Assembly (NCBI GenBank): GCA_029856045.1
Contig: JAHQWG010000016.1
Location: 313,921 to 377,920, forward strand
Source of the DNA: Promethearchaeia archaeon
GTDB lineage: Archaea; Asgardarchaeota; Lokiarchaeia; Sigyniarchaeales; SOKP01
Reading direction: 5' to 3'
DNA length: 64,000 nt
How positions within the stretch are numbered: position 1 is the stretch's first letter; every line of letters starts with the position of its first letter. A program made the translations under genes and the position numbers. Of the stretch, positions 25,231-25,545 are shown piece by piece. Below the pieces are notes generated by a model. The model did not search any database. It saw only the letters and a program-made list of their open reading frames with translations, and was not told the DNA's origin.

Positions 25231-25333
25231 GGGCTATGGGGGATATCCTAAAAAGAGCGAGATGCCCTTCTTGTTCGAACCCCCGACCGACGGATTAAGA
25301 GTCCGCTGCGCTACCTGACTGCGCTAATAGCCC
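25231..25333 (-). tRNA. tRNA-Lys(CTT) with a 30-nt intron in the T-loop
   Basis: The acceptor GGGCTAT pairs with ATAGCCC, the D-arm is GCGC/GCGC, and the anticodon arm GCGGA/TCCGT encloses loop CTCTTAA (anticodon CTT). The T-stem GGGGG pairs with CCCCC, but the T-loop is split. 5' exon 25274-25333 ends TTCGAA, intron 25244-25273, 3' exon 25231-25243. The joined tRNA is 73 nt. The junction folds as a bulge-helix-bulge: outer T-stem, central helix UUCG/AGGA (one G-U, one G-A), three-base bulges AAC and UAU, and an inner 9-bp helix AAGAAGGGC/GCUCUUUUU with a 5-base loop. Cutting after the second base of each bulge gives a correct seven-base T-loop. Confidence 0.88.
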
Positions 25334-25351
25334 ATTTATTTCCAATTGAAC

Positions 25352-25432
25352 GCAGATGGAGGGATTTGAACCCCCGAGCGCTTGCGCGCACTGGCTCTCA
25401 AGGCCAGCGTCTTACCACTAGGCTACATCTGC
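25352..25432 (-). tRNA. tRNA-Ser(TGA)
   Basis: An 81-nt cloverleaf with acceptor GCAGATG/CATCTGC, anticodon stem CTGGC/GCCAG enclosing CTTGAGA (anticodon TGA), a long class II variable arm (TGCGCGCAAGCGC region), and T-arm GGGGG-TTCAAAT-CCCTC. No intron is seen. It lies 18 bases upstream of tRNA-Lys on the same strand, so the two are probably co-transcribed. Confidence 0.93.
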
Positions 25433-25545
25433 ATTTACTTAAAATTAATAATAACTTAAATTAATTTTTCTTTTTTTTCAAATCTCTGATAAGGAAATTA
25501 GTGTTAAGATTACCAGTCCTTAAAAAAGAATATTTTGTATTTTTT

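Follow-up and report, generated by a model that had tools for sequence, protein, structure and literature searches.

The window, a stretch of 64,000 nucleotides from contig C27 (assembly of 3.34 Mb in 55 contigs), contains on its minus strand a 103 nt pre-tRNA-Lys(CTT) gene (25231–25333), in which the acceptor, D, anticodon and T arms are all complete once 30 nt are removed. Read on the minus strand from 25333 to 25231, the gene runs GGGCTAT TA GCGC AGTCAGGTA GCGC A GCGGA CTCTTAA TCCGT CGGTC GGGGG TTCGAA, followed by the 30-nt intron CAAGAAGGGCATCTCGCTCTTTTTAGGATA (25244–25273) and T CCCCC ATAGCCC. Sequence reading assigns tRNA positions 1–59 to a 5′ exon of 60 nt with a D-loop of 9 (25274–25333) and positions 60–72 to the 3′ exon (25231–25243); the anticodon CTT (25297–25299) is set in the anticodon loop C-T-CTT-A-A. 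Excision of the 30 nt yields a complete tRNA-Lys(CTT) with the canonical T-loop TTCGAAT, in which the exons meet at the non-canonical position 59/60. A shift of the junction by one base is tolerated without spoiling the tRNA, and 59/60 was chosen because only this position sets both cuts at canonical bulge positions. The sequence-only reading, which had proposed a tRNA-Lys with a 30-nt intron at 59/60 at these coordinates, was right on each point, the gene being on the minus strand. The tandem neighbour, approximately 17 nt upstream, is a tRNA-Ser(TGA) gene identified by ARAGORN (25350–25433, minus strand); the same neighbour is found in genomes G001–G004, G017 and G021 and was used as a synteny anchor. 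The tRNA-Ser(TGA) of G017 (L072) has its own anticodon-loop intron, which is absent from that of the window.

Standard tools did not recover the tRNA-Lys(CTT) gene. ARAGORN did not report it, and it was missed by the Rfam tRNA model at the gathering score, as the model recognised the D and anticodon arms alone (21.8 bits, against a gathering score of 29). Since the gene escapes both ARAGORN and Rfam at the gathering score, tRNA counts for Asgard archaea may be too low.

The precursor can be drawn as a bulge-helix-bulge (BHB) with the T-stem as the outer helix and two bulges, both of 3 nt, on opposite strands. The exon strand of the central helix, U54 U55 C56 G57 (25276–25279), lies opposite the intron strand AGGA (25246–25249), giving three standard pairs (U54-A, U55.G and C56-G) and a G57.A mismatch. 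The 5′ splice-site bulge is A58 A59 followed by intron base C1 (25273–25275), with a putative cut at 25274/25273, and the 3′ splice-site bulge is U A followed by U60 (25243–25245), with a putative cut at 25244/25243; both cuts would fall between the second and third bulge nucleotides (AA|C and UA|U). The remainder of the intron forms an inner helix of 9 bp closed by a 5-nt loop (25250–25272). The near-canonical BHB described in the sequence-only reading was borne out as to its two 3-nt bulges, whereas its four central pairs were wrong for the window sequence because G57 faces A. Minimum-energy folding kept the inner helix and left the central helix open, the closed form being approximately 2.4 kcal/mol worse (−39.9 vs −37.5). 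The G.A mismatch is also present in congeners, where the central helix is likewise not in the minimum-energy fold. With T-loop location not yet required, pairing as good as that observed (at least 3 central pairs and 9 of 9 inner pairs) was seen by chance in 14 of the 127,940 30-mers of the window and in 4 of 200,000 shuffles of the intron.

In three of the four congeners (G001, G002 and G004) the 60-nt 5′ exon is identical, an intron interrupts the gene at the same site, and the exons throughout are identical or near-identical. Their introns differ from one another in bulge bases, the intron base of the 5′ bulge being free to vary, and at positions where pairing is preserved; one inner pair is broken in G001. 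G003, the fourth congener, has an uninterrupted ortholog (TTCGAA|TCCC) adjoined by the same tRNA-Ser(TGA) at the same spacing, so that the G003 gene is, judged by its sequence and setting, a natural empty site. The locus offers a natural experiment, with one genus, one site, the intron present or absent, and compensatory changes between exon and intron. The window gene and those of two congeners have U73 as the discriminator (25230, position 73). The third congener has G73, as do the other relatives' tRNA-Lys genes that were read and the tRNA-Lys(TTT) of the window's own genome.

A pattern search of 228 genomes for T-loop introns in tRNA-Lys, from which five chance matches were removed by eye (G161, G191, G153, G072 and G022, all intact tRNAs with chance downstream matches), identified such introns in 45 genomes, including 39 of the 65 from the same family. 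In many relatives the site is the same and the intron sequence is different, and in some genomes both tRNA-Lys genes are interrupted in the T-loop. The distinct introns number 49, of which 39 are exactly 30 nt long and 38 form all four central pairs. The combination of exon base 57 with intron base −6 was G-C in 29, A-T in nine, A·C in two, G·A in five and A·A in four (11 unpaired), and the table of exon base 57 (G/A) against intron base −6 (C/T) gave a Fisher p of 2e-7 with the kinship of the genomes ignored. Covariation was scored on the two ends of each intron and the flanking T-loop, with the hairpin loop left out. For 46 distinct introns (the window's own included), 86.0% of cells paired, compared with 66.8% after shuffling (0 of 500 shuffles as high), although these shuffle counts overstate the significance because the relatives are not independent; when the partners were slid out of register, only 28.7–56.4% of cells paired. 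The covariation score was 0.534 vs 0.188, and all seven inner-helix pairs tested changed on both sides. These results argue strongly, with kinship ignored, that the BHB structure, including the pairs equivalent to the central and inner helices of the window gene, has been maintained by compensatory change across relatives. Strict BHB geometry does not explain the introns of G015, G059, G186 and G217, which keep the U54 pair alone; these end in GAATACA, GAACACA or GAACAAA before T60, and their 3′ bulge seems to be wider. Across nine genomes, a test for introns shared by both tRNA-Lys genes of a genome found no overall support (p 0.16), although the two introns look alike in G063 and in G042.

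The genome encodes two separate PF01974 (EndA) genes, for one catalytic and one non-catalytic subunit. The catalytic subunit (alpha, 197 aa) has the Tyr/His/Lys residues Y138, H146 and K177, and the non-catalytic subunit (beta, 203 aa) lacks both the catalytic His and the K-P-R loop; they are predicted to assemble as an (alpha-beta)2-type enzyme. The best solved relative of alpha is the Aeropyrum EndA 3P1Z/3AJV (3P1Z, 1.8e-38), and K55-P56-R57 of alpha aligns with K44-P45-R46 of 3P1Z, the loop residues of the Aeropyrum enzyme (PMC12397907). This "Crenarchaea-specific loop" gives Aeropyrum EndA its broad specificity, and when inserted into a narrow-specificity EndA it broadens specificity in a manner that requires its Lys (PMC6379350). 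The broad-specificity endonuclease that had been expected from the intron alone is encoded, its specificity being predicted from the aligned loop. At least one PF01974 match was present in each of the 148 genomes sampled from the phylum, with two in most. Catalytic subunits read from several other families of the phylum also contain a K-P-K/R loop, the motif there being IRKPK. The ligase RtcB is encoded as well (PF01139, E 7.5e-174).

The locus is very probably a tRNA-Lys(CTT) gene that is functional and whose BHB intron, at the non-canonical position 59/60, is cut out by EndA, with RtcB joining the exons. In the precursor, the T-stem would serve as the outer helix, the central helix would be built from T-loop bases 54–57 and the intron's 3′ end, and the rest of the intron would form the inner hairpin. 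A heteromeric EndA, whose catalytic subunit has a loop with a lysine close to the active site, would cut in each 3-nt bulge, and RtcB would join the exons to give a normal tRNA-Lys(CUU), splicing presumably being needed before charging and decoding. The proposal of a non-canonical archaeal tRNA intron, made at the outset from the letters of the window, is supported by conservation, the orthologous empty site and compensatory change. A second tRNA-Lys(CTT), an intact copy of which had been named beforehand as grounds for rejecting the spliced-gene reading, was not found by a mature-tRNA search or by an anticodon-to-T-arm pattern with up to 2 mismatches, searches that a heavily interrupted copy could escape.

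It is very unlikely that the gene is instead decaying, with the 30-nt insertion having inactivated tRNA-Lys(CTT) and tRNA-Lys(TTT) reading AAG by wobble. The genome has one intact tRNA-Lys(TTT), and U34 may read AAG, so that tRNA-Lys(CTT) may be dispensable. Decay would also fit the imperfect central helix and the discriminator, where U73 against the G73 of intact relatives is a possible sign of drift and was counted against a functional, spliced gene. However, the exons of the congeners are conserved while the intron varies, exon and intron change in a compensatory manner across relatives, and in the several genomes with T-loop introns in both tRNA-Lys genes a failure to splice would leave no lysine tRNA, which is hard to reconcile with decay.

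Retention of the insert, the tRNA working with an enlarged T-loop, would be compatible with the stable inner hairpin and the undisturbed T-stem of the minimum-energy fold, but is highly improbable given that a retained hairpin would have no evident use for the conserved BHB bulges or for R57 covarying with intron base −6, that EndA and RtcB are encoded, and that the orthologous gene exists without the intron. An assembly or binning artefact, conceivable for a multi-contig assembly, is scarcely credible and is already refuted by the independent genomes, as four separate genomes from the genus contain this interrupted gene in synteny.

A spliced tRNA-Lys(CTT) intron at this site belongs to a known kind, since introns at 59/60 and non-canonical Asgard tRNA introns are already published. 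Position 59/60 is among the listed archaeal non-canonical tRNA intron positions (Sugahara 2008; review PMC4090602), and the introns described there share the position, the BHB-type junction and the short length with that of the window; they come chiefly from Crenarchaeota and Nanoarchaeota, whereas the present set is from a Lokiarchaeota lineage and was studied in tRNA-Lys. In the portion of PMC11291895 consulted, Atabeyarchaeia and Freyarchaeia, which are likewise Asgard archaea but of other classes, are described as having intron-rich tRNA genes, often with introns at non-canonical positions, and 92–95% of tRNAs interrupted, a larger share than in the present genome; no T-loop covariation set was found in that portion. 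Like the (alpha-beta)2 EndA of Aeropyrum pernix (3P1Z/3AJV; PMC6379350, PMC12397907), the predicted Asgard enzyme has two subunit types, a catalytic triad and an aligned K-P-R/K loop; its sequences differ in being Asgard, and its oligomeric state and activity are predicted. Asgard archaea are not mentioned in the main text of PMC6379350 or PMC12397907. A limited literature search, which is weak evidence of novelty, found no earlier account of a Lokiarchaeota T-loop set with exon–intron covariation or of the loop in Asgard EndA.

We raise, as a tentative proposal about which we are more doubtful than confident, that the tRNA-Lys T-loop is a recurrent hotspot of intron gain and loss in this Lokiarchaeota family, and that the "Crenarchaea-specific" EndA loop is general in Asgard archaea. 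Such a hotspot would arise because the near-invariant T-loop UUCR supplies half of every BHB. If the loop is general, the enzyme type from which the eukaryotic TSEN may descend would already have had a broad-specificity loop. The presence of the loop in Asgard EndA is relevant to the origin of broad-specificity splicing ahead of the eukaryotic enzyme.

A restricted pattern, applied to the same genome to look for further T-loop introns, matched 16 times, and tRNA-Lys(CTT) was the only match identified as a tRNA. Of the others, L276 looked suggestive but proved on reading not to be a tRNA, and the remaining 14 were assessed by the matched string only. The tRNA inventory, which rests on Rfam matches and the stretches read, is intron-rich: it includes anticodon-loop introns, D-loop introns in genes for tRNA-Asp, His, Gln, Glu (two) and Leu, and one intron in the T-stem of tRNA-Arg(TCG), the junctions of these other introns being approximate as scored by the author. 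A probable selenocysteine tRNA with a TCA anticodon was also observed (L025, C1:2268-2355).
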